Shown: one piece after another, positions 7,791 through 63,290 of the stretch | Position numbering within the stretch: the first letter of the stretch is position 1 | Layout: every line of letters starts with the position of its first letter | Source of the DNA: Spirochaetota bacterium | GTDB taxonomy: Bacteria; Spirochaetota; UBA4802; UBA5550 | Assembly: GCA_017999915.1 (NCBI GenBank) | Contig: JAGNKX010000001.1 | Coordinates: forward strand, 1 to 64,000 | Direction of reading: 5' to 3' | Length of the DNA stretch: 64,000 bases | Made by a program: the position numbers and the translations under genes | The notes under the pieces: generated by a model | Told to the model about the DNA's origin: nothing | Databases searched by the model: none | What the model saw: only the letters and a program-made list of their open reading frames with translations

Positions 7791-7795
7791 CGCCC

Positions 7796-8587: not shown

Positions 8588-8626
8588 GAGCCATTGAAAC
8601 CGGAAAGACAACGCGGGATCGACCCA

Positions 8627-9355: not shown

Positions 9356-9370
9356 GGGGAATGGGCAGCG

Positions 9371-34950: not shown

Positions 34951-35601
34951 TCATTGCGGGATAATCTGTGCCTCGAACATACCGGACAGCTTCTTGCCGA
35001 ATTTTTTCATGTTTTTTATCGCTTCCTCATGGTTATTGCTTGGATAATTTTTGAAGGTGATCAAATAACCGATGAGCGACGCAATGTACATGCGGGCAAG
35101 CAACCGCGTATCGATGTTCGGATTAAAGCGGGAAAAATATTTAACTATCTCGATAAGCAGCTCACGAAAGCTTTCAGTGACAATACCCAGGACCTCCTCA
35201 TTCAGCGTATCATCGATCAGGAGATGGGTCCTCATTTTTAAATTCTGTTCCTCGAGCTCCAGCAAATAATGGTCGATGATGGCCAGGGTGACTTCTTCCA
35301 ATAAAAAATCCTGATTTGAATCTATGATCTCCTTGATTTTAGACAACAAACGATTGTTGCTTCGGGCGTAGATTTCAGCGAAAAGCGACTGTTTATCTGA
35401 AAAATATCGATAGATCGCCGTGGCGGTTATTCCCACATCCTTGGCGATATGCCTCATCGTCACCTTGTCAAAGGGTATGTCGGTAAAAATCTTTTCAGCG
35501 GCATTTATGATCAGGTCTTTCTTGTTTTCACGCTCAATTACCTTCAGCTTTGAAAAATTCATTGAGTCGTCAACTTTGCGCTTTTTATTTGTCGTGGCCA
35601 T
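34951..35601 (-). CDS. TetR-family transcriptional regulator
   Basis: The 216-residue product starts at ATG 35601, which fits the promoter at 35626-35654; an ATG 12 nt upstream would leave hardly any leader. The HTH lies at about 25-70 (DLIINAAEKIFTDIPFDKVTMRHIAKDVGITATAIYRYFSDKQSLF). The C-terminal ligand domain is helical with no recognised signature. The gene is read in the same direction as the large acyl-CoA gene cluster upstream of it, separated by an AT-rich gap. TetR regulators of the FadR/PsrA kind often control such clusters through acyl-CoA binding, so it is the best candidate regulator. Confidence 0.9.
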   Translation of the reverse strand: MATTNKKRKVDDSMNFSKLKVIERENKKDLIINAAEKIFTDIPFDKVTMRHIAKDVGITATAIYRYFSDKQSLFAEIYARSNNRLLSKIKEIIDSNQDFLLEEVTLAIIDHYLLELEEQNLKMRTHLLIDDTLNEEVLGIVTESFRELLIEIVKYFSRFNPNIDTRLLARMYIASLIGYLITFKNYPSNNHEEAIKNMKKFGKKLSGMFEAQIIPQ

Positions 35602-35625
35602 ATATCTAACCAATATTTTTAGAAA

Positions 35626-47507: not shown

Positions 47508-49013
47508 TCAGCCTTTCATTCCGGCGGTCGAAATTCTCTCTTTCTCTAGAATATCAAGTCCGACCGCCCTTCCATTCATCAGGGTCGGGTGAAATCCTCC
47601 CGGATTGTTCGTCCATGCCCCGACAAAGTGGAGTCCCCTGACACGGGGACGGTCCATGGGAAACAGATAATAATGCCTGCCGTAATGGTTGAATCCGCCG
47701 ATGGCGCCGCCGGGGGCGCGGGTGAACCGCACATTGGTCAGCGGGGTGGCCACCTCGATTTCCTCGATGTGCTCCCTGAAACCGGGATAGAATTTCTCCA
47801 CCTGGCCGAGGATCTTCTCCGCCCCCTCGTACTTTGCGTCACAATACCGGTGAGGCGGAATTGACAGCCATCGCTCGCCGTTTTGATAATCGACGATCGT
47901 CACCAGGGACGTGCCGGGAGGCGAACAATCCGGGTCATCCACGTTGTAGCAGGATATATAGAGGGGCCGCTGGCCCGGGCCGAGGATGAAATTCATCGAT
48001 TCATTCATGGCGATGTGCGAATGGTCGCAGTCAAGGGCGATGAAGAGTATGAACGTCGAAGGGCCTATGGCGCTCCCGCGAAAAGATCTCATCTGCCCTT
48101 TCGGTACATCGGCGCGATCCATCATTTCCGTGTAAACAACCAGGGGGGACGCGTTTGAGACGACATTCTTTGCGCCAATGACGTCGCCGGACTCGGTGAC
48201 AACGCCCACAGCCGCTCCGTTTTCCACTACTATCTTGCTTACACCGCAGTTAAAACGAACGTCTCCGCCGCTTTCCTGAAATCTTCTTACAATGGCGTTT
48301 GATAGGGCCTGGGAGCCGTTCTTAATTTGATATGATCCATATTCAATATACAGAAAGAGCCATATCGCCAGATCGATCAGACTTATCTGTTTGGGCGGTC
48401 CGGAATAGGCGCTGAATATCCCGACGATGAGCTTTAACAGCGGATTGGTGAAAGACGAATCAAGTACTTCCTGCAGGTTTTTATAGGCATGGTTGGAATA
48501 CACCGGATACTTCTCAGCCGAAAACCCCGTATCCAATCTGGCGTTGATATCGACGGTGTCGAAATTATAATGATACAGCTCCTGGAACTCGTTCCAGCAG
48601 TGGTAAATCAGCGCAAAAAAATCATCGATGTTTTTGCTTTCCTCGGGAAATTTTCCTTTTAAAATTTCGATGATCTCCTCACGGTTTGCCGGAAGCGTCA
48701 CGTCCAGATAGCCGGGGACCATGACCCGGTAGAGATTTTTCATTTCCACCCATTCTAAAAGGTCCGTGACGCCCAGTGAATCCAGCGCCGTCCTGAGGGG
48801 CCCGGGCTTTTCCTTTGAACCCAATCCGCTCAATTGATGCAACGCCACCTCGAACTCGAAGCGGCCCCTGCAAAAACTCGTGGCATAGCCGCCGGGAACG
48901 TTGTGCTGCTCGAGCATCAGCGTTCTGAGGCCGCCCTGGGCGAGGGTGCAGGCAGCCGTAAGACCACCGTTGCCCGCCCCGATTACGATCGCATCATATT
49001 CCGCGTGATTCAT
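47508..49013 (-). CDS. FAD-dependent oxidoreductase, phytoene desaturase/CrtI-like
   Basis: In the 501-residue product the dinucleotide motif is at the start (AIVIGAGNGGLTAACTLAQGG, residues 9-29), followed by EQHNVPGGYATSF, and the C-terminal FAD motif lies in RPRVRGLHFVGAWTNNPGG. The family includes carotenoid desaturases, isomerases, retinol saturases and related lipid saturases. No carotenoid genes are present, so a role on a polyunsaturated or isoprenoid acyl substrate, or as a saturase, fits better. A paralogue lies at 60846, and the flavin reductase at 49091 is adjacent. Confidence 0.85.
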   Translation of the reverse strand: MNHAEYDAIVIGAGNGGLTAACTLAQGGLRTLMLEQHNVPGGYATSFCRGRFEFEVALHQLSGLGSKEKPGPLRTALDSLGVTDLLEWVEMKNLYRVMVPGYLDVTLPANREEIIEILKGKFPEESKNIDDFFALIYHCWNEFQELYHYNFDTVDINARLDTGFSAEKYPVYSNHAYKNLQEVLDSSFTNPLLKLIVGIFSAYSGPPKQISLIDLAIWLFLYIEYGSYQIKNGSQALSNAIVRRFQESGGDVRFNCGVSKIVVENGAAVGVVTESGDVIGAKNVVSNASPLVVYTEMMDRADVPKGQMRSFRGSAIGPSTFILFIALDCDHSHIAMNESMNFILGPGQRPLYISCYNVDDPDCSPPGTSLVTIVDYQNGERWLSIPPHRYCDAKYEGAEKILGQVEKFYPGFREHIEEIEVATPLTNVRFTRAPGGAIGGFNHYGRHYYLFPMDRPRVRGLHFVGAWTNNPGGFHPTLMNGRAVGLDILEKERISTAGMKG

Positions 49014-49090
49014 GGCCCTTCTTTATATTACGCCAGACTGTGATATATGCTTCATACTTTCCCGTGTTGTCCTGCCGCGCCCCTGCGCGC

Positions 49091-50248
49091 CTATAGCAAA
49101 ATTTCCAGATCGCTCAACGGATAGGCGGAGCAGGCGTGGACATAGCCATGGGCCCGATCCGATTTTCTCACCAGCGAGCCGGATGCCTGGAATACCTTCC
49201 CCGAAATGACCTTGACACGGCACAGGCTGCACCGGCCGGAGCGACAGCTGTGCTCCACCGTCATGCCGGCCCGCTCCATCGCAACCAGCAATGACTCTGA
49301 CACCGGGGCTGCGATTGTCCGCCCGCCGGCTATACGGATGGAAAAGACATCATCGGGCGCAACATCGGCCGGCCAGGCCGGGTCGTCGCAAATTCCGGGC
49401 CCGGGTCCGTACACTTCCTGCCTGATACGGCGCCCGGGAACGCCGAGCTTATGCAGGTCCGGGACGCAGCGCCCGTACATCTCCCCGGGACCGCACAGGT
49501 AGAACATGGCGGTATCAATGGAGATGCCCAGCTTTTTGACAAGATCGGCATCAAGGAAGCCGGTCTGTTCCGTGCAGCCCGCGGCCGGCTCAGAGATCAC
49601 CGGGGTATAAGTAAAATTGGCGTGGCGGCGCGCCCGGGCCGTCAGCTCCTCATGGAAGATGGCCTCCTGCGGGGTCCTGCAGCCGTATAACAGGCTGATA
49701 GTTCGGTCAAGGCCGCGGTCCGTAACTTCCCGGATCATGCTCATGAAGGGCGTTATGCCGCCGCCCCCCGCCATAAAGACAAGGTTCTTCCCGTGGAAAA
49801 GCGGGTTGTAATGGAAATGTCCCGCCGGGCCGGTGGAAACAAGGACGTCCCCCACACGCACCCGGTCGAGCAGGTAGGATGAAACGAAGCCATGAGGCGC
49901 GCGCTTTACCGTAATGTCGTAATACGCCGTCTGGCAGGGCGATGACGAGATGCTGTAGGGACGGCCGGTGCGGACCCCGTCGATCTCGACCAGGACCGTG
50001 ATATGCTGTCCGGCCTGGAACGGAGGAAGGGGCCTGTCATCCGCCACCAGCCGCAGCGTGGCAACGGAGTCCGTTTCTTTATGAATCTCGGAGACGCGAA
50101 GCTTCAACCGCTTCGGATGAAGCCGCTCCACCGCGTCGCGCCACATCCCCTTGCGCGGGATGCAGTCAACGCCGAATGTCCCGCGAAGCTCGATCTCCTT
50201 CCTGATATCCTCATAACCCCGGATCTGATGTTGTGAATCGCCGCCCAT
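49091..50248 (-). CDS. FNR-type flavin reductase with C-terminal plant-type [2Fe-2S] ferredoxin
   Basis: The 385-residue product has an N-terminal extension of about 55 residues, then the FAD domain (RPYSISSSPCQTAYYD), the NAD(P) domain (VFMAGGGGITPFMSMIR, FYLCGPGEMYG) and a C-terminal ferredoxin with CRSGRCSLC and a fourth Cys in VHACSAYP. This layout is that of PaaE, KshB and hydroxylase reductases, which pass electrons from NAD(P)H through FAD and a [2Fe-2S] cluster to an oxygenase or other acceptor. No oxygenase is present; the CrtI-like enzymes or the HpaB/AbfD-like flavoprotein could be recipients. Confidence 0.88.
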   Translation of the reverse strand: MGGDSQHQIRGYEDIRKEIELRGTFGVDCIPRKGMWRDAVERLHPKRLKLRVSEIHKETDSVATLRLVADDRPLPPFQAGQHITVLVEIDGVRTGRPYSISSSPCQTAYYDITVKRAPHGFVSSYLLDRVRVGDVLVSTGPAGHFHYNPLFHGKNLVFMAGGGGITPFMSMIREVTDRGLDRTISLLYGCRTPQEAIFHEELTARARRHANFTYTPVISEPAAGCTEQTGFLDADLVKKLGISIDTAMFYLCGPGEMYGRCVPDLHKLGVPGRRIRQEVYGPGPGICDDPAWPADVAPDDVFSIRIAGGRTIAAPVSESLLVAMERAGMTVEHSCRSGRCSLCRVKVISGKVFQASGSLVRKSDRAHGYVHACSAYPLSDLEILL

Positions 50249-50328
50249 CAATCACCCGCGTCCTTTGACAATGACATGATCCATATCATAATGACAGTGT
50301 TGCCATGCATCTGAGACATGTATTACTC

Positions 50329-51486
50329 CTACGCCTCCAGAGCGAGGGACTTCGCGATATTCTCTTTTATGATCTCCACCGACTCGCCGCCGGTCAGCAT
50401 GACGATCGCGTCCCGCAAATAGCGCTGAGCGTCATATTCCCGCGCGTATCCGTACCCGCCGAGGATCTGGACGCAGTTAAACGCAGCGGTGTTGGCTGCC
50501 CCGACCGCGTGATAGCGCGCCATGACGGATTCAATGGCCGGATTCTCTCCCTTGTCGTTGAGCCATGCCGCCTGGTAGGCGATCAATCGCGCCCCGCTGA
50601 TCTGGATGGCCATGTCCGCCAGCATGTGCCGGACCGCGCCGAAATCGATGATCGGTTTTCCGAACTGAACGCGGTCCCTGGCATACTGGGATGCGTATTC
50701 ATAGGCCCCCTGGGCCATGCCGAGGGCGGCGCTGGCCACTTCAATGTTCTCGGATTCCATTATGCGCTGCAGCTGCGTCCAGCCTTTGTTCGCCATCTCC
50801 GGCCCGCCCAGGACATCCGACGCGTCCAGAGCGACATCCTTGAACTCAACGGCGCCGATATTGATCGAATCGAACCCGACCCTGTCCACGGACTTCACCG
50901 TAATTCCTTTCTTCTTCGAGTCGACGATGAACACGGTAAGCCCGTGCTCCGGTTCCTTCTCCGGGTCCGTGCTTGCCAGCACGAGAAAGTGATCGGCGCG
51001 GTCGGCCAGACGAACGCCGACTTTGGCGCCGTTCAGGACAAAGCCGTTTCCCGATTTTGCAGCCCTTGTTTTGGCCGAGAACTGGCCGTAGGCGTCATCC
51101 GATTCCCTGAGGGCATAGGCGAAGAGCGACGCCTTCTCCACAATCGCCGGCAGCAATCGCTTCTTCTGGTCCGCACTGCCGAGGGCGGAAATGATATTTC
51201 CGCCGCAGAATGTCGACGCGATGAAAATCGCCGCGAGGGAGGGATACAATGCGGCCAATTCCTCGACCACGAGCACCGCTCCTATGGTGTTGGGCCCGCC
51301 GCCGCCGTACGTTTCGGGGACTATGAGGCCGCAAAAACCCATGGTCTGGATCGTCTTGAACAGACCGGCCGGAAACTCCCCGCTTTCGTCCATTTTCTTG
51401 ACGCTGTCGCGGCTGCATTCCCGGACGACGAAATTATGTATGGTTTCTCGAATCAGTTGCTGCTCTTCACTCAATGCAAAATTCAT
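50329..51486 (-). CDS. Acyl-CoA dehydrogenase (helix-G glutamate type)
   Basis: The 385-residue product starts at ATG 51486; an ATG 12 nt upstream is also possible. The fold is complete: YGGGGPNTIGAVLVVEEL, a substrate/FAD region that has ALRESDDAYGQFS where relatives have TEPxAGSD, and YLRDAIVMLTGGESVEI. The usual C-terminal catalytic Glu of the YEGT motif is Gly. A Glu is present at residue 250 (counted from the upstream ATG) in RIMESENIEVASAALG, the place used by isovaleryl-CoA and long-chain dehydrogenases. It introduces the alpha-beta double bond in an acyl-CoA and needs an electron-transfer flavoprotein, not encoded here. Confidence 0.88.
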   Translation of the reverse strand: MNFALSEEQQLIRETIHNFVVRECSRDSVKKMDESGEFPAGLFKTIQTMGFCGLIVPETYGGGGPNTIGAVLVVEELAALYPSLAAIFIASTFCGGNIISALGSADQKKRLLPAIVEKASLFAYALRESDDAYGQFSAKTRAAKSGNGFVLNGAKVGVRLADRADHFLVLASTDPEKEPEHGLTVFIVDSKKKGITVKSVDRVGFDSINIGAVEFKDVALDASDVLGGPEMANKGWTQLQRIMESENIEVASAALGMAQGAYEYASQYARDRVQFGKPIIDFGAVRHMLADMAIQISGARLIAYQAAWLNDKGENPAIESVMARYHAVGAANTAAFNCVQILGGYGYAREYDAQRYLRDAIVMLTGGESVEIIKENIAKSLALEA

Positions 51487-51551
51487 CACCCACTCCATTG
51501 ATCTATATTGACTTGTTCATTCACACAGGGACTGACAAATCCTGCATGCTC

Positions 51552-53195
51552 TCACACCAGACGGTCTTTCCCTTTCCAGTAGTTCGCGCGAATGGCCTTT
51601 TTGTCGATCTTCCCGAGATTCGTCACCGGTATTTCCTTCCAGAACTCGACGGTCTTGGGGGTTACGAGGCTGCCCTTCCTGTCCTTGACGAACTTGATCA
51701 ATTCCTCTTCCGTCGCGCCCTTTCCTTCATAGAGCGCGACTATCGCCTTGACCTCCTCTCCCCACTTGTCGTGGGGGACCCCGATGACGGCCACGGTTCT
51801 CACCGCCGGATGCTCGTAGAGGACATCCTCGATCTCACGGGGATAGATGTTGAATCCGCCGCTGATGATCATGTCCTTGCAGCGGTCCACTATGTACAGG
51901 TAGCCCTCTTCGTCGAATTTCCCCATGTCGCCGGTATGGAGCCAGTCGTCCCTGATCGTTTCAGCCGTGATCTCCGGGTCCTTGAGATAGCCGTCCATCA
52001 TGTTGATATGCTTGACGATGATCTCGCCCGCCTCCCCGGCGGGAACGTCATTCAGTTTATCGTCCACGATCCGTATCTGACAGGGAAGCGTTGGCCTGCC
52101 GCAGGAGCTGAATATCCGCCGCTCCCTTTCCGGATCGCTTATGACATGGCCTTCCTTGGGCAAACAGCAGATCGCCATGGGGGCCTCGGTCTGGCCATAG
52201 AGCTGCGTGAAAATCGGCCCGAACCTGGTGATGGCCTGCTTGAGGCGCTCCGGGGCGATGGCCGACGCGCCGTAGATGATATTGCGCCAGCTCGAGGTAT
52301 CGTAGGTGCTGATATCCGGATGATCCATGAGCACATAGAGCATGGTCGGGACCAGGAACGCGGAGGTGATCTTTTCCTTTTTCGTCAGCTCGAGGAACTC
52401 CTTGGGATCAAAGTGGTCCATGATGAGGCATATGCCGCCACGGATGAGTATCGGGATCATGAGGCAGCCGCCGGCGTGGGTCAGGGGAGTCGCGAAACAG
52501 AACACTTCATTGTAACTGATACGGAACTCAAGGAGCTCGGTTATAAAGGTCCCCACCCAGGCGCGGTGGGACAGCATGACTCCCTTGGGAAGACCCGTGG
52601 TTCCCCCGGTGAAATATATGCCGCACAGGTCCCTGGGCTGGACTTCAACATCGGGGACCTGGGCCGGGTATGACTCGATGAGGTCCTGCATGCGGATATG
52701 CCCCTCCGGGACCTTTGAAGCGTCATCGGCGATGCAGATGAAGGTCCTCACCGTTTCCAGGTGAGGGATCATTTCCATAACCCGCCCCACCATCTTCTCG
52801 TGGTAAATCAGGGCCTTGCATTCGGCCCTGTTCATCATGTAGATGTGGTCGTTGTTCGAAAGGAGCACCGCCAGGGGGACCCGCACGATGCCGCACTTGG
52901 CCAGGGCGTATTCGGTAAAGATGTATTCCGGGCAATTGGCCATCAAAAATGATATGCGGTCGCCTTTCCTGAAATCAAGCTTCGTCAGGGCATCGGCGAT
53001 GCGATAGGCCTTGTCCTGCATGTCCGCATAGGTATACGATACGTTTCCATACTTGATGGCGCAATTGTGCCTGTAAAACGTCACACACCTGTCATAGAGA
53101 TCGCCAACACTGTAATCCATCATAGCATCCACCCCCAGTAACCCTGCATAAAGATCGAAATGATCTTTTTGATCCACCATCATGGCAATACCCAT
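51552..53195 (-). CDS. AMP-binding acyl-CoA synthetase (FadD-like)
   Basis: The 547-residue product has a start that could also be ATG 53183 or 53180. The P-loop is YFTGGTTGLPKGV, followed by YGQTEAPMAI (A5), WLHTGDMGKFDEEGYLYIVDRCKD (A7/A8) and the A10 lysine in VTNLGKIDKKAIRA. The specificity region differs clearly from the ligase at 41842, so it probably activates a different acid. It lies 4 nt downstream of the fused hydratase/dehydrogenase gene and is probably cotranscribed with it. Confidence 0.88.
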   Translation of the reverse strand: MGIAMMVDQKDHFDLYAGLLGVDAMMDYSVGDLYDRCVTFYRHNCAIKYGNVSYTYADMQDKAYRIADALTKLDFRKGDRISFLMANCPEYIFTEYALAKCGIVRVPLAVLLSNNDHIYMMNRAECKALIYHEKMVGRVMEMIPHLETVRTFICIADDASKVPEGHIRMQDLIESYPAQVPDVEVQPRDLCGIYFTGGTTGLPKGVMLSHRAWVGTFITELLEFRISYNEVFCFATPLTHAGGCLMIPILIRGGICLIMDHFDPKEFLELTKKEKITSAFLVPTMLYVLMDHPDISTYDTSSWRNIIYGASAIAPERLKQAITRFGPIFTQLYGQTEAPMAICCLPKEGHVISDPERERRIFSSCGRPTLPCQIRIVDDKLNDVPAGEAGEIIVKHINMMDGYLKDPEITAETIRDDWLHTGDMGKFDEEGYLYIVDRCKDMIISGGFNIYPREIEDVLYEHPAVRTVAVIGVPHDKWGEEVKAIVALYEGKGATEEELIKFVKDRKGSLVTPKTVEFWKEIPVTNLGKIDKKAIRANYWKGKDRLV

Positions 53196-53199
53196 AGCG

Positions 53200-55206
53200 T
53201 TATTTATAAAAATTCTTATTGAACATGGTCTTTGACAATCCCGTGAGATCGGCCCACTTCATCGGGCCTCCCTTGTCCGCCGGGAAGCCGATCCCCCACA
53301 CAGCGCCGATATCGATCGACCGGGGATCGTTGATGATCTTCTTTTCCAGGAGCTCGTTTCCCGTCGCTATGAAGGGAGTAAAGAGCATCTCCTGTATCTG
53401 CTCCTCGCTGTATTCTTTCTTTTTCCCGTCAGGATTGATGAGCGGCAGCGCTTCGACGTCGACCTTCCCTTCCTTGTCGTAAAAGCCCTTGCCGTTCTTG
53501 TTGCGTCCATACCGTCCGGCCTTGTAAAGATTCTCGATCGCCGGCGGCGCGGTCTTCTTGAGGGATTTCGTGAGGACCAGATAGGACGTATCTATCCCCA
53601 CCTCGTCGGTCAGGCGTATGGGCCCCACCGGGAGCCCGAACTTCATCATGGCGTTATCGATGCTTTCTATGCTGACGCCCTCCCCGAGAAGCTCGTATGT
53701 CTTGATGAAGTAGGGGAAGAGCATGGCGTTGACCACGAAGCCGGGATTGTCGTTGCAGACCACGGGGCGCTTCCTGAGCGCCGCGGCCAGGGCGATGATG
53801 TTGTTAATGGCATCATCAGACGTATCTTTGCCGCGAATGATCTCCACGAGCTCCATCTTCCATACCGGCGAGAAGAAGTGTATGCCGGCGAAGCGCTGGG
53901 GATTTTTCACGCTCTGCGCCAGCAGGTTGACCGGGAGGCTGGAGGTGTTGCTCGCCAGTATGCAGTTGTCCGGGACCACCGTGCAGAGGGAGCGGTACAC
54001 CTCGTCCTTGACCGCGGGGTCCTCGAACACGGCCTCGATGACCACGTCGACATCCTTGAAATCATCGGTCCAGTCCGTCACCGGGATGATGAGCTTCATG
54101 AGATCGTCGACCGGCTTCGCGAGTTTTCCCTTTTCCGCCATCCCCTCGAGGACCTTCTTTACCGCGGCCTTCCCCGGTTCCAGGGCGGCGGGAAGATCCT
54201 TCACCACCACCGGCTTCTGCAGGCGCCGCAATATTTCGATGACAATGCCGCGTCCCATGATGCCGAATCCGAGGACGGCGAGCTTGTTTATCTGTTTCAC
54301 GGCGAATCCCTTCGGTATCATCGCCTGGGGCTTGTCGGAGTATGTTTTAAGGAAGAAGGTATTGATCATGCCCTTCGCTTCGGGTGACCTGAGCACGTTC
54401 ATGAAGCACTGGACCTCCAGCGCCAGTCCGTCGGCGATCGGCATCTTGAGTCCTTCTTTAATGGCCTTGAGAGCGTATTTCGGCCCGGGCAATTCCCTGC
54501 CCCGCGACGCCTTGAGAACGCCCTTCGCGGCCGTGGCAATCACCTCGTCCAGGCCGGACAGGTCCTGTTTCGGGCGCTTCAACGCCGCGGTGCCACCGGC
54601 GACATCCTTGGCGAAGACCTTCGCTTCTGCCAGGAGATCGGCGCTTTCCGGAACGATCTTGTCGATGAGACCGGCCTCCAGGCCCTTTTTCGCCGGCATG
54701 ACCTGGCCCTTGAGTATGATTTCCAGGGCCGCGTACCCGATAAGCCGCGGCAGGCGCTGGGTGCCGCCGCCGCCCGGCATGAGGCCCACGGATATCTCGG
54801 GCAGTCCCACCAGGGTCTTGGGGCTGTCCGTGGCGATACGGGCCGTCATGGCCAGAGCGAACTCGTAGCCGCCGCCCATGCACTGTCCGTTGATCGCCGC
54901 GATTGTCGGTATGCCGAGGTTTTCCATTTTCAGGAATAGCTGGGTGAAACGCATGCAGCGGGCCTGGAATTTAGGATAATCGGTTATGCTTTCAATGAGG
55001 GCCAGGTCCCCGCCGGCGTGAAAGGAGCTCTTGCCGGAGATGAAAATAACGGCCTTGTAATTCGATTTTTCCTTCTCGAGTCGTCCGATCAGCTCGTCGA
55101 AATCCTCGACTGCCTGATCGGTCCATGTATTGACCGCGTCGCCGGCCACGTCGAACCGAACGATTGCCAGATCATCCTGCTTTTCCAGATTGAATACTTT
55201 TGCCAT
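53200..55206 (-). CDS. fadJ: Enoyl-CoA hydratase / 3-hydroxyacyl-CoA dehydrogenase, FadB/FadJ order
   Basis: The product has 668 residues. The hydratase comes first (SSFHAGGDLALIES, NGQCMGGGYEFALAM, LPEISVGLMPGGGGTQRLP, both catalytic Glu present). The dehydrogenase follows from about residue 310 (LAVLGFGIMGRGIVIEIL, NTSSLPVNLLA, GIHFFSPVWKMELVEIIRG, CNDNPGFVVNAML). This is the E. coli FadJ/FadB order and the opposite of the protein at 44983. It performs hydration and oxidation of 2-enoyl-CoA. Two such fusions in one cluster suggest two substrate classes. Confidence 0.92.
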   Translation of the reverse strand: MAKVFNLEKQDDLAIVRFDVAGDAVNTWTDQAVEDFDELIGRLEKEKSNYKAVIFISGKSSFHAGGDLALIESITDYPKFQARCMRFTQLFLKMENLGIPTIAAINGQCMGGGYEFALAMTARIATDSPKTLVGLPEISVGLMPGGGGTQRLPRLIGYAALEIILKGQVMPAKKGLEAGLIDKIVPESADLLAEAKVFAKDVAGGTAALKRPKQDLSGLDEVIATAAKGVLKASRGRELPGPKYALKAIKEGLKMPIADGLALEVQCFMNVLRSPEAKGMINTFFLKTYSDKPQAMIPKGFAVKQINKLAVLGFGIMGRGIVIEILRRLQKPVVVKDLPAALEPGKAAVKKVLEGMAEKGKLAKPVDDLMKLIIPVTDWTDDFKDVDVVIEAVFEDPAVKDEVYRSLCTVVPDNCILASNTSSLPVNLLAQSVKNPQRFAGIHFFSPVWKMELVEIIRGKDTSDDAINNIIALAAALRKRPVVCNDNPGFVVNAMLFPYFIKTYELLGEGVSIESIDNAMMKFGLPVGPIRLTDEVGIDTSYLVLTKSLKKTAPPAIENLYKAGRYGRNKNGKGFYDKEGKVDVEALPLINPDGKKKEYSEEQIQEMLFTPFIATGNELLEKKIINDPRSIDIGAVWGIGFPADKGGPMKWADLTGLSKTMFNKNFYK

Positions 55207-55316: not shown

Positions 55317-55865
55317 TCAGCACGTGATCTCCCATTCGCAATAGACCCCGCAGCCCAGCGTTTCGGGCGGTATTTTCCTGGGACGGGCCTTCATGGTCGG
55401 ACTGAAGTAAGCGGCCTGGAAATCGAACATGCGCTGCTCGATAATGCGGCAGAAGCTTCCCTCCCGGCCCTCTCCTTCCTTCACCAGGGCGTCGATCGTC
55501 GGGCATTTGGTCACCCGAATGACCCCGTGGTTTTTCGATATCAGCTCGAGCTCCGCCTCAATGTTCCCGGACCATGCCATGAACTGCGTGGCCTTGAAAA
55601 AAGCCTCAACATCGTTGCCGGTTATGTTGAACATCCTGGTTACATGCTTCAGCTCATAGCGCATGTGCTTTTCCCACACCCGGAGGTCCAGCTCCATGGC
55701 CGTCTCGTTGCCGAATTTCTCCTTGGCCGCGAGATACCAGAATCCGTCCACCGCCAGGAACATTTTCCGATATAGTTCAATCCCCCTGAGCTTCATATCC
55801 TCGCTGAAGGATTCCCAATTCAGGTCCGGCCTGAACTCACCGGCGTAATCATTCATTCCGCCCAT
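55317..55865 (-). CDS. DUF6125-type protein of unknown function
   Basis: The product has 182 residues from ATG 55865 (GGAGGG site 5 nt upstream). It resembles proteins I know as DUF6125, sometimes described as related to L-2-amino-thiazoline-4-carboxylate hydrolase: a helical first half (WESFSEDMKLRGIELYRKMFLAVDGFWYLAA), a central HVTRMFNITGNDVEAFFKATQFMAWS, and a Cys-containing end (RVTKCPTIDALVKEG, FCRIIEQRMF, LGCGVYCEWEI). There is no signal peptide. It lies between a fused beta-oxidation gene and an acyl-CoA dehydrogenase, so an acyl-CoA or redox accessory role is possible. Confidence 0.7.
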   Translation of the reverse strand: MGGMNDYAGEFRPDLNWESFSEDMKLRGIELYRKMFLAVDGFWYLAAKEKFGNETAMELDLRVWEKHMRYELKHVTRMFNITGNDVEAFFKATQFMAWSGNIEAELELISKNHGVIRVTKCPTIDALVKEGEGREGSFCRIIEQRMFDFQAAYFSPTMKARPRKIPPETLGCGVYCEWEITC

Positions 55866-55909
55866 CGAGCCCTCCATGTTTCAAACATAGACGCCGCGTC
55901 TTCCGGCGC

Positions 55910-57067
55910 TCAGACGCCCTTCAACCCTATGACCTTGCTGATTATGTTCTTCTGGATCTGGGACGTTCCGCCGCCGATCGACAGGATCAGTATGTCGCGC
56001 AGATAGCGCTGCAGATCATGGTCCATCGACGATCCGTCCATCCCCAGGATGTTGACTCCCTGTTTTATGACATTCTTGCTCGTTTCAGCGGCGAAATACT
56101 TGCACATCGAGGTCTCCTTGGTCGGCGACAATCCGGCGACCTCCTTCCACGCCGTGGCGTAGGCGAAGGTCCGGGCGACCTCGAGCTCCGTGGCCATCTT
56201 CGCCAGGGTGTGCTGTATCGCCTGGGTGTCCACCGCCTGGCTGCCGCGCTGCAGCTTCTCGATGGCGTAGGCCAGGGCGTCCTCGTACGCGGCCTGGGCC
56301 ATGCCGATGGCGCAGGCGGAGAGCATCAGGCGCTCCTGGTTGAGGAGCTTCATCTCCTGCTTCCACCCGTTGTTGAGCCCCTTCTCCTGGCCGCCCAGTA
56401 TGTATTGGGGCAATACCTTCACGTTCTCGTAATAGACCTCGCAGGTGTTCGAACCGTGATACCCGAGCTTGTCGATCTCCCTGGTCGTGTACCCTTCCTG
56501 GTTCGTGTCGACGATGAACGACGTGATCCCGCCGTACTTGGAAGAGCTCGTGCGGGCGAAGGTCACCGTGTACTGCGTGACCCCGGCGCCGGTGATGAAC
56601 ATCTTGCTGCCGTTGATCAGCCAGTGCCCGTCCTTGAATTCCGCCTTGGTGATGATGCCGGCGGCGTCCGATCCCGCGTTGGGCTCGGTGATGGCGAAGC
56701 TGAACATGATCTCGCCCTTCGCGAGCTTCGGCAGGAATTCCTGCTTCTGCTCCTGGCTTCCGTTGACGGAGATGATCTCATTTCCGTACAGGAGTATGTT
56801 TCCCAGGGCCCAGCAGAGCACCGGCAGCCTGCGAGACACTTCCTCGAAGATGATCATGAGATCGAAAACATCGCCGCCCATCCCCCCGTATTCCTTTGCC
56901 ACGTTGATTCCGCACAGGCCCAGGTCGGCGAACTTCTTCACCAGGTCCGCGGGAAACTTCCCCTCACGGTCGATTTCGCGGGCCCTGGCGCGGGGTATTT
57001 CCGTCTCCACATAGTTGCGGATGCGCTCGCGCAGTTGATCCTGTTGTTCGGTAAATTTAAAATCCAC
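55910..57067 (-). CDS. Acyl-CoA dehydrogenase (helix-G glutamate type)
   Basis: The 385-residue product starts at GTG 57067, preceded by AAGGAG. Motifs: EYGGMGGDVFDLMIIFEEVSR, FAITEPNAGSDAAG, and the C-terminal RYLRDILILSIGGGTSQIQK. The YEGT glutamate is again Gly (IGGGT), while Glu245 in LLNQERLMLSACAIG matches the helix-G catalytic base of isovaleryl-CoA dehydrogenase. It is followed upstream by MaoC, DUF35 and thiolase-like genes in one tight run, so it probably provides the enoyl-CoA for that module. Confidence 0.9.
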   Translation of the reverse strand: MDFKFTEQQDQLRERIRNYVETEIPRARAREIDREGKFPADLVKKFADLGLCGINVAKEYGGMGGDVFDLMIIFEEVSRRLPVLCWALGNILLYGNEIISVNGSQEQKQEFLPKLAKGEIMFSFAITEPNAGSDAAGIITKAEFKDGHWLINGSKMFITGAGVTQYTVTFARTSSSKYGGITSFIVDTNQEGYTTREIDKLGYHGSNTCEVYYENVKVLPQYILGGQEKGLNNGWKQEMKLLNQERLMLSACAIGMAQAAYEDALAYAIEKLQRGSQAVDTQAIQHTLAKMATELEVARTFAYATAWKEVAGLSPTKETSMCKYFAAETSKNVIKQGVNILGMDGSSMDHDLQRYLRDILILSIGGGTSQIQKNIISKVIGLKGV

Positions 57068-57160
57068 GGTTAATGTCTCCTTATGATCGCTTCCAGGGGC
57101 GGTTTCCGCGCGCCTCTATCGGATACGGAAATGCGGCCCTCGGCATCAGGCTCGTTTTTA

Positions 57161-57613
57161 CTACTGGGCCCCTTTGCGGAACATGAGAAATTTCATGTCA
57201 AAGACCATGACCGTCTCGTTCCGCTGATTTGTTATCGTGTATCGCCAGGTCTGTATCCCCTGGGTGGGCTTGGTCGTCTCGCGCCTCTCTATGACAGAGA
57301 CATTGTTGGTTATGGTGTCCCCGATCTTCACCGGAGCGACCATCTTCATATTGTCCGTTCCCATCCACGCGATCATCGAGCCGCCTTCCACCCTGGCCAG
57401 TCCCGCCATGCCGACGGCCATGCCGAATATGAGGGGCCCGTGGGCCAGCCGTTCCTTCATTGGCGATTTCGCCGCGTATTCCTTGTCCATGTGGATCGGA
57501 TAGAAATCCATGGTCAGTCCCGCCCAGTTAACGACATGGGTCTCGGTCACCGTTATCGATGGCGTCACAAACGAGAATCCGACATCAAAATCTTCCCAAT
57601 ATTTATCCGGCAT
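57161..57613 (-). CDS. MaoC-family (R)-type enoyl-CoA hydratase
   Basis: The product has 150 residues from ATG 57613, chosen because AAGGAG lies 7 nt upstream; an ATG at 57628 overlaps that site. The hydratase-2 motif is DFYPIHMDKEYA with Asp36 and His41, followed by LAHGPLIFGMAVGMA and GTDNMKMVAPVKIGDTI. Members add water to a 2-enoyl-CoA. Its place next to a DUF35 protein and a thiolase-like protein is the same as that of ChsH1 in actinobacterial steroid side-chain degradation. It could act on its own or with the DUF35 protein. Confidence 0.88.
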   Translation of the reverse strand: MPDKYWEDFDVGFSFVTPSITVTETHVVNWAGLTMDFYPIHMDKEYAAKSPMKERLAHGPLIFGMAVGMAGLARVEGGSMIAWMGTDNMKMVAPVKIGDTITNNVSVIERRETTKPTQGIQTWRYTITNQRNETVMVFDMKFLMFRKGAQ

Positions 57614-57664
57614 GTCATTCTCCTTCATTCATGCTTAATTTTCTCACGGCTCGAGCCCCCGCCC

Positions 57665-58081
57665 CTATTTCGCGGCGGGTTTGAATTTCGGCAGCGTGAC
57701 CTCGTCCGTGAGCTTCTCGAAGACCACTTCCACCGGCATGTCGCAGCGCACATCGTGGGGATCGCACCCGACTATGTTCGTGAGCATCTGCACGCCCTTT
57801 TCCTGGAGCTTCACTATGGCGATCACGAAGGGCATATCGTCCACGAAAGCCGACGGGCAGTTGCTCTCGACCACCGTATAGGAATAGACGGTGCCCCTGC
57901 CGGACGACTGCACCCATTCGAGCTTATCCGAAGAACAGTTGATGCAGGCGATGCGGGGATAAAAGATGTTCGTGCCGCAATCCTTGCATCTCTGATAGAT
58001 GAATTTTCCTTCCTTCGCGGCCTCCCAGAAGGGCCTGGCCCACGGATTTATTACCGGTACCGGCTTCTTTGGCTTGTCCAT
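57665..58081 (-). CDS. DUF35 zinc-ribbon/OB-fold protein
   Basis: The 138-residue product has the rubredoxin-like zinc ribbon with Cys32-x2-Cys35 (RCKDCG) and Cys46-x2-Cys49 (ACINCS), followed by an OB fold with GTVYSYTVVESNCPSAF and PFVIAIVKLQEKG. DUF35 proteins bind acyl-CoA and form obligate complexes with thiolase-like partners, for example ChsH2 with Ltp2 or the acetyl-CoA acetyltransferase/HMG-CoA synthase complex of archaea. The thiolase-like gene is 17 nt upstream, so they are almost certainly partners. Confidence 0.9.
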   Translation of the reverse strand: MDKPKKPVPVINPWARPFWEAAKEGKFIYQRCKDCGTNIFYPRIACINCSSDKLEWVQSSGRGTVYSYTVVESNCPSAFVDDMPFVIAIVKLQEKGVQMLTNIVGCDPHDVRCDMPVEVVFEKLTDEVTLPKFKPAAK

Positions 58082-58097
58082 TGCAATCCTCCTCTCG

Positions 58098-59282
58098 TCA
58101 TGGAATCTCGGTTCCCAGGATGGTCACCTGGGCGTCCATGTAGGTCCCTCCGGTGGCCGTCTCCAGGCCAAACCGGGCGTTTGCGACCTGCCGATCCCCG
58201 GCCTTGCCCATGAGCTGCCGCACGGTCTCGATCATAAGGGCCACGGCGCCGCCGGCGCCGGTGTGCCCCTGCGACAGCATTCCGCCGTTGGTGGTGCAGG
58301 GCATTTTCCCCCCCGGCCAGGTATCGCCGTTGAAGAACATCTTCCCGCCCTGGCCCCGTTCGGCGAAACCCAGCTCCTCGAATCCGATGAGCTGGTAAAT
58401 GGGATAGGAGTCGTATATCTCCGCCACGTCGATGTCCCTGGGACCGATCCCGGCCATGTCAAAGGCCATTTTCCCGGCCCTGGCCCAGCCGAACCTGCTG
58501 ATATCCGGCTCCTGGGAGTAGACGAAGTGCGTCACCGCACCGCCCTCTCCCAGAAGGTAAACCGGCCTGTCGGTGAGATCGCGGGCGCGCTCCGCCGATG
58601 TCACGATGAACGCGGCGCCGCCGTCAAAGAGCATGTTCGACATCTTCGCCCGCAGCGGCGTGGAAAGCATCTTGCTCGCCATCACCTCTTCCAGGGCCAG
58701 GGGCTTTCTGAAAAAGGCGTTCGGGTTGAGCTCCGCCCACTTGCGGTTGGAGACGCAGATCGAAGCCAGCTGCTCGTCGGTCGTCCCGGTTTCGTGCTTG
58801 TAGCGCATTGTCGCCAGGGCCGCTATTGCCGAATAGTGCATGCCGTAGGGCACCTCCCACTCGCCGGATATGCCGGCGGTGGAGAAAAGGTCGATGCCGC
58901 CCTGGAGGCTGACGCCCGTGCCCAGCTTGTCCGCGTGCACGAAGAGGATCGTGGTCGCCCCGCCGCTGTTGATGAGACTGGCGGCGATCTCCAGGGCGCA
59001 GGTGCTCGAGGAGCCGCCGGCGAAAATCTGGCAATTACGCTTTACGTTTTTCAGTCCCAGCTCCTCGACGACGCGGCACGTGACCAGCTCCGTGTTGAAA
59101 ACGGGGCTGAAGAGCGACGCGGTCGGCAGCACGTAGTCGATATCGTCCTTCTTGATTCCCGCGTCCTTGATGGCCATACGGGCCGATTCGATCGCGTAGC
59201 TGATCGCGGCGGTATCGGGATATCTTCCCGTCGGGATTTCACCGATGCCAATAATGGCAATCTTTCCCTTGAGCTTGCTCAT
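58098..59282 (-). CDS. Thiolase-fold protein without the nucleophilic Cys (Ltp2-like aldolase candidate)
   Basis: The 394-residue product has a thiolase fold, with the SCP-x-like MLSQGHTGAGGAVALMIE near the C-terminus. At the nucleophile position the sequence is QIFAGGSSSTCALEIA, so Cys is replaced by Gly89 (Cys95 is six residues on). Where SCP-x thiolases have EVHDA, this has AEIYDSYPIYQLIGFE, with Tyr for His. Loss of the Cys, a DUF35 partner and a MaoC gene nearby match the layout of the steroid retro-aldolase Ltp2. The activity may be aldol cleavage rather than thiolysis. A structural, non-catalytic role cannot be excluded. Confidence 0.82.
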   Translation of the reverse strand: MSKLKGKIAIIGIGEIPTGRYPDTAAISYAIESARMAIKDAGIKKDDIDYVLPTASLFSPVFNTELVTCRVVEELGLKNVKRNCQIFAGGSSSTCALEIAASLINSGGATTILFVHADKLGTGVSLQGGIDLFSTAGISGEWEVPYGMHYSAIAALATMRYKHETGTTDEQLASICVSNRKWAELNPNAFFRKPLALEEVMASKMLSTPLRAKMSNMLFDGGAAFIVTSAERARDLTDRPVYLLGEGGAVTHFVYSQEPDISRFGWARAGKMAFDMAGIGPRDIDVAEIYDSYPIYQLIGFEELGFAERGQGGKMFFNGDTWPGGKMPCTTNGGMLSQGHTGAGGAVALMIETVRQLMGKAGDRQVANARFGLETATGGTYMDAQVTILGTEIP

Positions 59283-59301: not shown

Positions 59302-60747
59302 TTATTTTTTGATGCCGGCCATTTCCTCAGCGAGCACCTTGGCCTTGGCGACGACCTTCTTCGCTTCCATGAGAATCGTCATGCGCTCGGCAAAGGGGGA
59401 CCCTTCGCCATGGAGGCAGATGGTCTCCAGATCGCCGGCGGTCAGGCGCCGTATCAGGTCGAACATGCGCAGCCGGTGCTCCGTGGGAACGTCGGGGTTC
59501 GCCTTGAGATATTTATCGATATCGTCATGGGTCTCCGGGTTCTGCCAGTCCCTGTAGGTCGGCGCGGTTACGAGGAGGCCTCCCGCCAGGTCCTGGATGA
59601 TTTCCACGATCTTGTGATAGTTGTGCGCAAAATGATATTTGGCGATATTCGTCGTGATCGGGTTCGGCACGGGGATGCCCGCATGCATGGTATGATCCAG
59701 GCAGGCCGAACGGGAGAGCGCGTTCAGCGTCTCGAGGTAGATGACGATCTCGGTTATCTTTTCCTTGACATGGGGCGCCTGTGACACGCCGTTATAGTCC
59801 GCTATGGCGGCGGCGATTCCCAGGAGCTGTTCGCTCAGCGGAATGCGGTAGGCGCAGCCCGTTCTGCGGTGCATGAGTGCGAAGTTGTAGACGCAGGTGG
59901 CCGCCGCCTTCCACTCCCCGCAGAGGAACACGCGGTCGTTCGGAACAAACACGTCGTCGAAGATAATGAGGGAGTCGGTGTGCATTTTCCGCAGCTCGTT
60001 CGCAACCGGGAACTCGTCCTTGCTGATCCTGCCGCGGAAGGGCCGCACGATCTGGCGGATCCCCTTGGCGTTGGCCGGGACCGCGACGGCGACCGCGTAA
60101 TCGCTGTCCTCCGGTCCACTGAGGGCGCGGCACGGAAGGGCGAAAAAGTCGTTGCAATAGGCGGCCCCGGTGATGTGCACTTTAGCGCCGCGCAGCACGA
60201 TGCCGTCCTTCCTCTTCTCCACGATGCGGAGGTTGAAATCGGGGTGCGCCTGCTTCGGATCGGACGGTCGGAGATGGCGGTCGCCCTTGACGTCGGTAAC
60301 GCCCGCGACCACGCACTTGTCGGTCTTCTTGAGATGCTTGCGGTAATTCTCGATACGCTCCAGGTACACCTTGCCTTCGTCGCCCAGGGTCCGGGCGGTG
60401 ATGGCTATGGCGTTCATGGCGTCGGCGCCGATGTCATGGGCGAGGGGAATATAGCCCTCTCCCAGCTCGGTGGCCTTGATAATCAGATCAAGATGCTTCA
60501 GGAGATCGTCGGCATTTTGGGGGACATGGTAATAGCGGCTGATGTTTTCCTTCAGCTCCTCGTCATACACGAGGGCGAGGTCCTTGTACTGGGGATCTTC
60601 GGCCATGTGATAATCGACCGCCACCGTCTCAACGCAGGCCTTGAGATCGGGCTCTTCGTTGACGTTCTCGATCTTCTTGCCCTTGTAATACACGATCCTT
60701 CCATCGTTTAAGCTGTCCTTATATTGTTGCGGAGTCATCAAACCCAT
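59302..60747 (-). CDS. HpaB/AbfD-family flavoprotein (4-hydroxybutyryl-CoA dehydratase-like)
   Basis: The 481-residue product starts as in AbfD (MTPQQYKDSL) and keeps GVTDVKGDRHLRPSD, LRIVEKRKDGIVLRGAKVHITGA, VFVPNDRVFLCGEW and HGEGSPFAERM. AbfD removes water from 4-hydroxybutyryl-CoA with FAD and a [4Fe-4S] cluster held by Cys99, Cys103, His292 and Cys299. Here the first two aligned positions are Pro101 and Asp105, and the His region reads HRRTGC with altered spacing. The cluster is therefore probably absent, and a flavin-only isomerase, dehydratase or oxygenase activity is more likely. The frame and the AGAGGAAA ribosome site are good. Confidence 0.85.
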   Translation of the reverse strand: MGLMTPQQYKDSLNDGRIVYYKGKKIENVNEEPDLKACVETVAVDYHMAEDPQYKDLALVYDEELKENISRYYHVPQNADDLLKHLDLIIKATELGEGYIPLAHDIGADAMNAIAITARTLGDEGKVYLERIENYRKHLKKTDKCVVAGVTDVKGDRHLRPSDPKQAHPDFNLRIVEKRKDGIVLRGAKVHITGAAYCNDFFALPCRALSGPEDSDYAVAVAVPANAKGIRQIVRPFRGRISKDEFPVANELRKMHTDSLIIFDDVFVPNDRVFLCGEWKAAATCVYNFALMHRRTGCAYRIPLSEQLLGIAAAIADYNGVSQAPHVKEKITEIVIYLETLNALSRSACLDHTMHAGIPVPNPITTNIAKYHFAHNYHKIVEIIQDLAGGLLVTAPTYRDWQNPETHDDIDKYLKANPDVPTEHRLRMFDLIRRLTAGDLETICLHGEGSPFAERMTILMEAKKVVAKAKVLAEEMAGIKK

Positions 60748-60845: not shown

Positions 60846-62465
60846 CTACCAGGATTTCACCCTCGCCGGCATTGCCCGGTGATAGGGCTTGAACACCTTT
60901 TCCTCCAGGTTGGAGCCCATCATGGTGTCAACGCAGAGAGACGCGCTCAACGCCGCGGCGTCAACGCCGCAGCCCCAGAGGCGCTCGCCGTACTGGTCGC
61001 CTGCGAAATAAAGCCCATCGACCATCTGCGCCTTGACGTCAATGCGGTCATACCCAACGGGCTGGATCCACGCAAAGGCATGGTCGGTGCACATCCAGAG
61101 CAGAAAATCCATCTCCGACTTCCATTTGTCCGCGCCGAAAGTCCGCTTCCACCACCGCTCGTTCCATTCGATGACGCGGGAGACCTTGTGGGGATTGCGC
61201 ATTTCGTCGTGGGTCATGGCGGTCGAGAAGATCCAGCCGTGCTTGCCCTCGGGAGCGCTCCCGGTTTCCTTGGTCAGGCTCGGGTTGGAGTTGCTCCCCT
61301 TCGCCGTGGACGCCAGGTTCCAGAGGACCATGTCTATGCAGCCGCTGTAGCCCTCTTCGGTTCCGATGACATCGGGCATATAGATGAAGCTCCGCTCCTC
61401 GATGCCCTTCGCTTCCCACACATTTGATTTCATGTTGCCGAAGCCGGTGATCATGCCGGCGCCCCAGAACTTCTTCTGGATGCGATCCACGACATCTTGC
61501 GGGAAATAGCGGGGATGGATGACATTGAGCATCTGCTTGGACGGGATGTTGCAGATCACCTTGTCCGCGTAAACGGTCTTGACCCCTTCGGCGTTCTGAT
61601 AGGTCACGCCCCTGGCGACGCCCTTCTCGATGACCACCTCGAGAACATTGGTGTTGCGCATCACCGTGGATCCCTTTTCCTTCAGCAGCTGCTCCATGAG
61701 AAGCGCGAAGGATATGGTGCCCGGGTTCGCCACGGTCGAGCAGGAGCCTTCCACCAGGTTCATCTTGATGTCGCCGGCGATGCACATGTGTCCCAGGACA
61801 TCGGGTGCCGGCGTCATGCGGAGGTCAGCCTGTCCCGTCTGCGACGCTGCCAGGACCTTGATATAATCATAGGCTTCCTTGTGCACGTTCTTCGATCTGA
61901 GCCAATCCTCGAAGGATATATGAGCCGTCTGCGCCACATCGTTGAAGCTCATCGTGGCCATTTCCCGCAGGGCCTTCATCGTGGACTTGAAGCCTTCGGG
62001 GCTCATCCACTGATAGGGCTCGTTTTTTCCAACCTGGTATGCCTTGTTCCCTTTTTTATAATCCACGAAGGCGAAGCCGACGTTGCAGGGCATATCAACG
62101 GGTTTTCCCAGGTAATCCATCAAATTGCGGATTTTCCCCTTGTTTCCCCAGAAAAGCCCGTGCCCCGTGTCTATTGTCGTGCCGTCAAAGAGGCCCTTTT
62201 CAAAACATTCGTCAACGTCGGGAGTGCACTTTGGAATCCAGGCCCCGACCATAGCCAGGGCGCGCTTGAACCCGTTGGCGTCCAGCTCCATCCCGTCAAT
62301 GGTCACCTTGTTGCCCTTGCCTACAAACGACGCCAGGCGGCCGCCGATAAAGGGCGCTCTCTCGAGCACCAATACCTTTTGATTGAAATCCTTCGCGAGA
62401 AGACACGCCGTGCCCAGACCCGCGACGCCGGAACCAACCACTATAACATCATAATCTTTTCCCAT
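60846..62465 (-). CDS. FAD-dependent oxidoreductase, phytoene desaturase/CrtI-like (second copy)
   Basis: The 539-residue product has the dinucleotide motif at the start (VIVVGSGVAGLGTACLLA, 6-23), then LERAPFIGGRLASF. The late FAD segment is DGLYFAGDQYGERLWGCGVDAAALSA. It differs from the protein at 47508 in length and in the central region (PSKQMLNVIHPRYFP), so the two are not recent duplicates. The family handles conjugated or isoprenoid lipids. Adjacent genes suggest an acyl or polyketide-like substrate. It is followed by an SDR gene upstream and a terminator downstream. Confidence 0.85.
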   Translation of the reverse strand: MGKDYDVIVVGSGVAGLGTACLLAKDFNQKVLVLERAPFIGGRLASFVGKGNKVTIDGMELDANGFKRALAMVGAWIPKCTPDVDECFEKGLFDGTTIDTGHGLFWGNKGKIRNLMDYLGKPVDMPCNVGFAFVDYKKGNKAYQVGKNEPYQWMSPEGFKSTMKALREMATMSFNDVAQTAHISFEDWLRSKNVHKEAYDYIKVLAASQTGQADLRMTPAPDVLGHMCIAGDIKMNLVEGSCSTVANPGTISFALLMEQLLKEKGSTVMRNTNVLEVVIEKGVARGVTYQNAEGVKTVYADKVICNIPSKQMLNVIHPRYFPQDVVDRIQKKFWGAGMITGFGNMKSNVWEAKGIEERSFIYMPDVIGTEEGYSGCIDMVLWNLASTAKGSNSNPSLTKETGSAPEGKHGWIFSTAMTHDEMRNPHKVSRVIEWNERWWKRTFGADKWKSEMDFLLWMCTDHAFAWIQPVGYDRIDVKAQMVDGLYFAGDQYGERLWGCGVDAAALSASLCVDTMMGSNLEEKVFKPYHRAMPARVKSW

Positions 62466-62525: not shown

Positions 62526-63290
62526 CTATATTGAGCCGCCTCCGTCCGCCACAAGGATCTGGCCGGTCATGTACGAAGAAGCGTCCGACACGAGGAACAG
62601 CGCGATCCGCGCGATCTCCTTGGGCGCCGCGATCCGCCGGAGCGGCGTATGGGCCATTTCCTGCTTCAGCAGCGGCTCGTTGCTCCAGAGGGCCTGGCTG
62701 AACTTGGTCTTCACGACGCCCGGCGCTATGGCGTTGACGCGGACGCCGAACTCGCCCAGTTCCTTGGCCATGGAGCGGGTCAGCATCCCGATGCCCGCCT
62801 TGCTGATGCAGTAGAGGCCGAGCCCGATATCGGGTGATACGCCGCCCACCGAGGATATATTAAGGATATTGCCTGATTTCTGGTTCTGCATGACCTTCCC
62901 GACCAGCATGCTCATGATGGAATATCCCTTGAGGTTGGTGACCATGATCTGGTCATACATCTTCTCGTCCATGTCCACCAGCAGCCCCATGCCCGGATTT
63001 GTCGCCGCGTTGTTGACCAGTATATCGATGCGCCCGAATTCCTTTACCACGCCGTCAACCAGCGCCTTGATGGTTTCCGCCTCGCGGTTGTGATAGGCCA
63101 TGCCGACGCCCTTCCTGCCCATCGCCTTTATCTTACCGGCCACGACATCCAGATCGGCCTGCTTGCGGCTCGCCACCACGACATCGGCGCCGGCATCGGC
63201 CAATTGCAGCGCGATTGCCTCGCCTATACCCCGGCTGCCCCCAGTTACCAGCGCGACTTTCCCGTTCAGAGACAAATAAGATGCATCCAT
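62526..63290 (-). CDS. SDR-family 3-oxoacyl reductase / hydroxyacyl dehydrogenase
   Basis: The 254-residue product has an excellent AGGAGG site upstream. Cofactor motif TGGSRGIG (16-23), NNAATNPG, catalytic Ser in ILNISSVGG, and YCISKAG with Tyr and Lys; the end is MTGQILVADGGGSI. It shares many positions with the SDR at 36889. Upstream (to the right) lies an acyl-CoA ligase 3' end after a gap of over 100 nt that holds no clear promoter. Confidence 0.9.
   Translation of the reverse strand: MDASYLSLNGKVALVTGGSRGIGEAIALQLADAGADVVVASRKQADLDVVAGKIKAMGRKGVGMAYHNREAETIKALVDGVVKEFGRIDILVNNAATNPGMGLLVDMDEKMYDQIMVTNLKGYSIMSMLVGKVMQNQKSGNILNISSVGGVSPDIGLGLYCISKAGIGMLTRSMAKELGEFGVRVNAIAPGVVKTKFSQALWSNEPLLKQEMAHTPLRRIAAPKEIARIALFLVSDASSYMTGQILVADGGGSI

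Follow-up and report, generated by a model that had tools for sequence, protein, structure and literature searches.

The closest described relatives of the system reported here are the steroid aldolases Sal and Ltp2, thiolase-fold proteins that lack the catalytic cysteine and work with a DUF35 partner. Both the Shy-Sal and the ChsH1H2-Ltp2 systems have been characterised in Comamonas, i.e., outside actinobacteria (PMC12329534, PMC11321319, PMC12502768). The residue roles in Sal and Ltp2 are described, with the equivalent tyrosine essential in both by mutagenesis; in a model, the backbone of Gly89 of Sal touches the substrate hydroxyl, and the C304S variant of Sal is inactive (PMC12329534). In this study we analysed a window of 64,000 nucleotides (positions 1 to 64,000 of contig JAGNKX010000001.1 of a Spirochaetota bacterium), in which four minus-strand genes at 55910-59282 encode, in reading order, a thiolase-like protein, a DUF35 protein, a MaoC hydratase and an acyl-coenzyme A (CoA) dehydrogenase. 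With a probability of about 0.6, we infer that the run combines the dehydrogenase and the hydratase with a DUF35-bound, Cys-less retro-aldolase for 3-hydroxyacyl-CoAs in which the beta-carbon is branched or belongs to a ring. The occurrence outside actinobacteria, which a first-pass annotation of this DNA had considered notable, has a precedent in Comamonas; what is new is that an uncharacterised and widespread clade, found in many anaerobes, has an active-site layout of its own.

All four open reading frames (ORFs) listed in the first-pass annotation are present, and each has a clear match to a curated family. The thiolase-like protein, predicted to be a retro-aldolase (58098..59282), matches Thiolase_C_1 (E 4e-55) and contains Gly89, Tyr290-Asp-Ser-Tyr293, Gly-His340-Thr-Gly and Gly378-Gly379. 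The DUF35 gene (57665..58081) starts 16 bp past it, with a ribosome-binding site (aggagg), and encodes a stand-alone protein with a rubredoxin-like zinc ribbon and an OB fold (zf-ChsH2 4e-15, OB_ChsH2_C 1e-22; C-x2-C-x10-C-x2-C). The MaoC hydratase (57161..57613) is a single-domain protein with a family match of 1e-17 and the catalytic D-x4-H motif (DFYPIH); its ATG at 57613 is a likelier start than position 57628 of the earlier ORF (57161-57628). The acyl-CoA dehydrogenase (55910..57067, family match E 4e-41) begins with GTG, and in it GGGTSQI replaces the usual Glu, while a Glu is present in LLNQERL, which we take to be the isovaleryl-CoA dehydrogenase-like position.

Alignment with solved structures bears out the earlier observation that the thiolase-like protein has Gly89 at the position of the Cys nucleophile and Tyr in place of a catalytic His: Tyr290-Asp-Ser-Tyr occupies the HDxF position of thiolases, with Tyr290 replacing the HDx His, and His340 (GHTG) takes the place of the thiolase GHP His. 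The corresponding residues are GG, YDCY and Gln in Sal, GG, YDHF and Tyr344 in Ltp2, and Cys, HDx and GHP in true thiolases. Across 55 aligned members of the clade, Gly89, Tyr290 and Asp291 never vary and His340 hardly does; Cys89 and the HDx His are lost together in every member, while the true thiolases of the same loci keep both Cys and HDx. Cys95, six residues beyond Gly89, was considered as an alternative nucleophile and is ruled out, since its column varies among relatives (Ala, Ser or Val) and Gly89 occupies the nucleophile column. Thiolysis by the usual mechanism is likewise ruled out by Gly89 and Tyr290, so that the loss of thiolysis proposed earlier is well supported by residues and phylogeny. 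Judged from these positions, the window protein should not function as a normal thiolase, and it possesses the base of an aldolase.

Two maximum-likelihood trees place the Cys-less proteins together with Ltp2, Sal and 4U4E in one group apart from the Cys-containing thiolases (support 100/100). Within this group the window protein falls into a separate clade with a long stem that includes none of Ltp2, Sal and 4U4E (support 100 in one tree and 100/100 in the other), with the deep branch order among these lineages poorly resolved. The best family model of the window protein and of its relatives is NCBIfam PRK06158 (NF004811), which all 55 scanned members match; the protein attains 297 bits of the 421 needed and is below the cut-off of every other model as well, and the clade is without a named equivalog in NCBIfam. 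In the AlphaFold2 model (predicted local distance difference test, pLDDT, 94) the two best Foldseek matches are 4U4E and the Sal-Shy(DUF35) structure 9MYR, with Ltp2-ChsH2 (6OK1) close behind.

Orthologues at 64-91% identity occur in Desulfobacterota, SAR324, Syntrophomonadales, Desulfovirgula, Chloroflexota, Acidimicrobia and beta-, gamma- and alphaproteobacteria, and remoter ones (43-56%) in rhizobia, Rhodobacterales and many actinobacteria. The DUF35 gene lies directly downstream of the thiolase-like gene in 48/48 orthologous loci, and MaoC comes next after it in 38/48, the exceptions being chiefly an alphaproteobacterial branch of about 50% identity; therefore, the gene arrangement is not due to chance. 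The zinc motif is found in nearly all DUF35 orthologues, and conservation extends to the D-x4-H motif of MaoC and the Glu of the dehydrogenase. In a Rhodococcus plasmid the order is dehydrogenase, MaoC, thiolase-like, DUF35. In Rhizobium etli (L050, plasmid) and two Novosphingobium loci (L109, L110), the aldolase-like/DUF35 pair adjoins hydantoinase A/B (acetone-carboxylase-like) and acetoacetate-decarboxylase-family genes, with a CoA-transferase gene also beside the pair in R. etli. This may be a ketone carboxylation pathway, and such neighbours would suit a ketone product of the aldolase.

To hypothesize, the synthetase of the run would make the CoA ester of an acid with a branched or ring beta-carbon, the dehydrogenase would introduce the alpha,beta double bond, and hydration by MaoC would yield a 3-hydroxyacyl-CoA. 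This would often be a tertiary alcohol, for which oxidation to a 3-keto ester is impossible. The Calpha-Cbeta bond would then be split by the thiolase-like protein, with Tyr290 taking the proton from the beta-hydroxyl beside the Gly89 backbone and His340, the retained GHP His at the place of the Ltp2 acid Tyr344, reprotonating the enolate. The cleavage would release acetyl-CoA (or propionyl-CoA) together with a ketone or aldehyde, and these products would pass to enzymes described below, namely the short-chain dehydrogenase/reductase (SDR), the second dehydrogenase and the FadJ-like protein. As in the complexes of Ltp2 and Sal, the aldolase dimer would be bridged by DUF35. In anaerobic terpenoid breakdown, the HMGCS-type enzyme LrcC was proposed to cleave at a tertiary beta-carbon (PMC12583861). 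At least one sister locus (L058) has an HMGCS-DUF35 fusion together with a window-type aldolase. As a biochemical precedent, Arthrobacter reportedly has a (1-hydroxycyclohexyl)acetyl-CoA lyase activity; a literature search on cyclohexylacetate lyase found nothing usable.

Several observations weigh against a retro-aldolase. By whole-model Z score the archaeal acetoacetyl-CoA thiolase 6ESQ ranks first (54.0), ahead of 9MYR (51.8) and 6OK1 (49.3), so fold alone cannot separate an aldolase from a thiolase. Ser292 stands where Sal has its acid Cys304, and since the Cys-to-Ser exchange inactivates Sal, an aldolase of this kind would need a different acid. The acids of both known aldolases are missing from the window protein; the retained His340 is the obvious candidate, although its role as the acid is a guess. 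The ketone-handling neighbours are confined to the three loci named above, none of which is in the window's own branch, and our search turned up no assay for any protein of this clade. The 6ESQ match, the GHTG His kept in nearly the whole clade, and an HMGCS-DUF35 fusion and Cys-thiolase adjoining in some sister loci would also suit an enzyme that forms or cleaves C-C bonds in the manner of a thiolase, or decarboxylates, without the Cys nucleophile, with His340 doing the acid-base work. We consider this unlikely, due to the joint loss of Cys89 and the HDx His throughout the clade, and because TbSLP, whose decarboxylation of malonyl-CoA is weak and proceeds at a very low rate, is now suspected to be an aldolase (PMC12329534).

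It could also be argued that the thiolase-like and DUF35 proteins form a non-catalytic or biosynthetic part of a larger acyltransferase complex (of the PhlABC or thiolase/HMGCS-like kind), with MaoC and the dehydrogenase being unrelated beta-oxidation genes. DUF35 proteins do serve such complexes, and three loci (L054, L058 and L060) carry an extra Cys-thiolase just upstream, with the HMGCS-DUF35 fusion shown in L058. However, the window and most loci are without an extra adjoining thiolase and yet MaoC and the dehydrogenase stay, and Tyr290 and Gly89 are invariant, which makes such a role highly improbable. As for the inserted genes themselves, L058:7225-9929 holds the HMGCS-like/DUF35 fusion and a Cys-containing SCP2-type thiolase between the HpaB-like and aldolase genes, a segment missing at that place in the window; similar gaps are seen in L054 (~7300-9967) and L060.

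The first-pass annotation had likened the module to that of steroid side-chain degradation in actinobacteria. A role in aldol cleavage of the side chains of steroids (sterols or bile acids), after the manner of ChsH1-ChsH2-Ltp2 or Shy-Sal, would agree with the nearest characterised relatives, which are steroid aldolases, and with the ChsH2 type of the DUF35 zinc motif. On the other hand, no 3-ketosteroid Delta1-dehydrogenase (KstD) above the curated cut-off was found in the host genome (best 94.5 bits vs 789) or in the 36 orthologue-carrying genomes, whose completeness is not given (about 430 bits in two of them vs 788), and a steroid role is thereby less likely. No known ring-degradation gene is among the neighbours seen across phyla, and the long stem separates the window protein from the steroid enzymes. 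Thus, a steroid substrate seems very unlikely for this locus, and we prefer branched or alicyclic acids as substrates of the proposed retro-aldolase.

The four genes lie within a longer, operon-like run on the minus strand with gaps of 4 to ~110 bp. Upstream are an SDR dehydrogenase (62526..63290), kept in anaerobe-type clusters, a flavin adenine dinucleotide (FAD) oxidoreductase with the amine-oxidase/phytoene-desaturase fold (60846..62465), syntenic in 20/48 loci, and a protein of the HpaB/4-hydroxybutyryl-CoA dehydratase family (59302..60747), ending 19 bp before the thiolase-like gene. Downstream follow a DUF6125 protein (55317..55877; same place in L054, L058, L084 and L086), a FadJ-like enoyl-CoA hydratase/3-hydroxyacyl-CoA dehydrogenase fusion (53200..55206; family match and synteny), an acyl-CoA synthetase (51552..53195) and a second acyl-CoA dehydrogenase (50329..51498; assigned by sequence and synteny, without a family scan), the last two kept across the cluster. 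A [2Fe-2S] ferredoxin-reductase-like protein (49091..50251) and a second FAD oxidoreductase (47508..49013) extend the run. A TetR regulator is encoded further away on the same strand (34951..35613); a TetR-like ORF of similar N-terminus closes the shorter clusters of L054 and L058. Two cluster forms can be distinguished. The first, with SDR, FAD oxidoreductase and HpaB-like protein, is found mainly where the genome lacks a haem-copper oxidase, and the second (FAD oxidoreductase-aldolase-DUF35-MaoC-synthetase-dehydrogenase) where the genome has one; L061 and L087 are exceptional in having the HpaB-like gene and a haem-copper oxidase together.

The best Protein Data Bank match of the HpaB-like protein is AbfD (1U8V). 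It keeps His292 and lacks Cys99, Cys103 and Cys299, three of the four Fe-S ligands, in every syntenic orthologue compared (loci L054-L095), and it is probably without the 4Fe-4S cluster, as far as its ligand positions suggest. A monooxygenase role was considered and judged unlikely, because many genomes with the gene have no haem-copper oxidase. Some carriers of the gene do have that oxidase, and cytochrome bd is present in the host, the one genome checked for it. The host COX1-family match (206 bits, 744 amino acid frame) is well below the cytochrome oxidases of carrier genomes and may be a nitric oxide reductase, so aerobic life is not decided by it. For the FAD oxidoreductase at 60846-62465, the predicted fold belongs to the general amine-oxidase/GDI/phytoene-desaturase group (template modelling score 0.5-0.64) and gives no clue to the substrate. 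By parts list only, the two phytoene-desaturase-like FAD oxidoreductases and the [2Fe-2S] ferredoxin reductase (47508-50251, 60846-62465) resemble limonene dehydrogenase CtmABEF (PMC4109377), and a resemblance to Delta24 desaturase (PMC11061730) is again one of parts list only.

The probable spirochaetal origin given in the first-pass annotation is supported by a 91% orthologue in a genome of the same order as the host (5.46 Mb, 99% complete). Among the 46 genomes of the order, the close orthologue is confined to these two, and the pair sits among deltaproteobacterial sequences in the tree, which fits a transfer into spirochaetes. A scan of viral contigs gave no relatives. Two of the collected loci are probable binning or naming errors: L059, a short contig of a Methanotrichaceae archaeon (metagenome-assembled genome) whose cluster is of the bacterial type (81%), and L127, a contig that bears the title Bifidobacterium breve and carries other thiolases. 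The host also encodes a paralogous thiolase-like/DUF35 pair (C5:108431-109971, 38%), which may be another variant: GG occupies the nucleophile place, but YDSY is replaced by W-N-C-Y. Contigs C5 and C2 of the host hold more clusters in which DUF35 domains are encoded, two of these domains within long frames (480-520 amino acids), and several SCP2-type thiolases.

Without oxygen, the degradation of terpenoid, naphthenic and branched acids is difficult, because ordinary beta-oxidation halts at a branched or ring beta-carbon. If the proposed reaction is true, it would provide genes for a (1-hydroxycycloalkyl)acetyl-CoA lyase type of reaction. To our knowledge, that reaction is known only from old enzyme assays. 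With the syntenic module found in Desulfobacterota, Syntrophomonadales, Chloroflexota and spirochaetes, and with clear catalytic predictions, the step becomes testable. The module also points to a larger group of Cys-less aldolases in which the steroid aldolases would be two twigs; the nearest family model of this group bears the name 'acetyl-CoA acetyltransferase'. In its widest form the proposal is tentative, and we would call it possible rather than probable: a widespread, unnamed class of retro-aldolases, with a third catalytic layout in which Tyr is the base and the old thiolase His the acid, would open branched and alicyclic acids after one modified round of beta-oxidation in several phyla, many members without haem-copper oxidase, alongside a relative of 4-hydroxybutyryl-CoA dehydratase that lacks the Fe-S cluster.

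Compared with known systems, the window protein shows the broad features of the Ltp2/Sal type (Gly for the Cys nucleophile, Tyr base in YD, adjacent DUF35 gene) and lacks those of SCP2-type or BbsB thiolases (Cys nucleophile, HDx). The BbsAB benzoylsuccinyl-CoA thiolase and the archaeal thiolase/HMGCS/DUF35 complex (7PXP, 6ESQ) share with it the thiolase fold, the DUF35 partner and anaerobic pathways, but both have the Cys nucleophile and the HD motif. The putative thiolase 4U4E of Sphaerobacter thermophilus, a solved structure with GGSS, YDSF and a His at the GHP place, is its best match by sequence (37% identity) as well as by Foldseek, yet belongs to a separate sub-branch with other neighbours (e.g., L052, L053). 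Sal-Shy of Comamonas testosteroni (9MYR; PMC12329534, PMC11321319) likewise has a Cys-less thiolase fold with GG and YD, a DUF35 partner and a single catalytic MaoC; the single-domain window MaoC with D-x4-H, as Shy, does not need an inert partner (PMC11321319). In Shy, however, MaoC is fused to a DUF35 with a C3H1 zinc site, whereas the window has separate genes and a C4 motif, and Sal, of about 30% identity, acts on a steroid with the acid Cys304 (YDCY) and Gln352, where the window protein has Ser292 and His340. With Ltp2-ChsH2 (6OK1) the window shares the Cys-less fold, the YD base, the C4 zinc DUF35 and the dehydrogenase-hydratase-aldolase logic. The copy of the ChsH1-ChsH2-Ltp2 logic seen by the first-pass annotation thus stands in part: kinship with DUF35-bound aldolases and the C4 zinc site agree with it, but ChsH1-ChsH2-Ltp2 has DUF35 fused to an inert MaoC and a two-subunit dehydrogenase, unlike the lone DUF35 and one catalytic MaoC of the run. 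Nor is the protein Ltp2-like in the strict sense, as it lies outside the Ltp2 branch and has YDSY and His340 where Ltp2 has YDHF and its second catalytic residue, Tyr344. As far as sequence can say, it would work like an aldolase of the Ltp2/Sal type, yet it is neither Ltp2 nor Sal.

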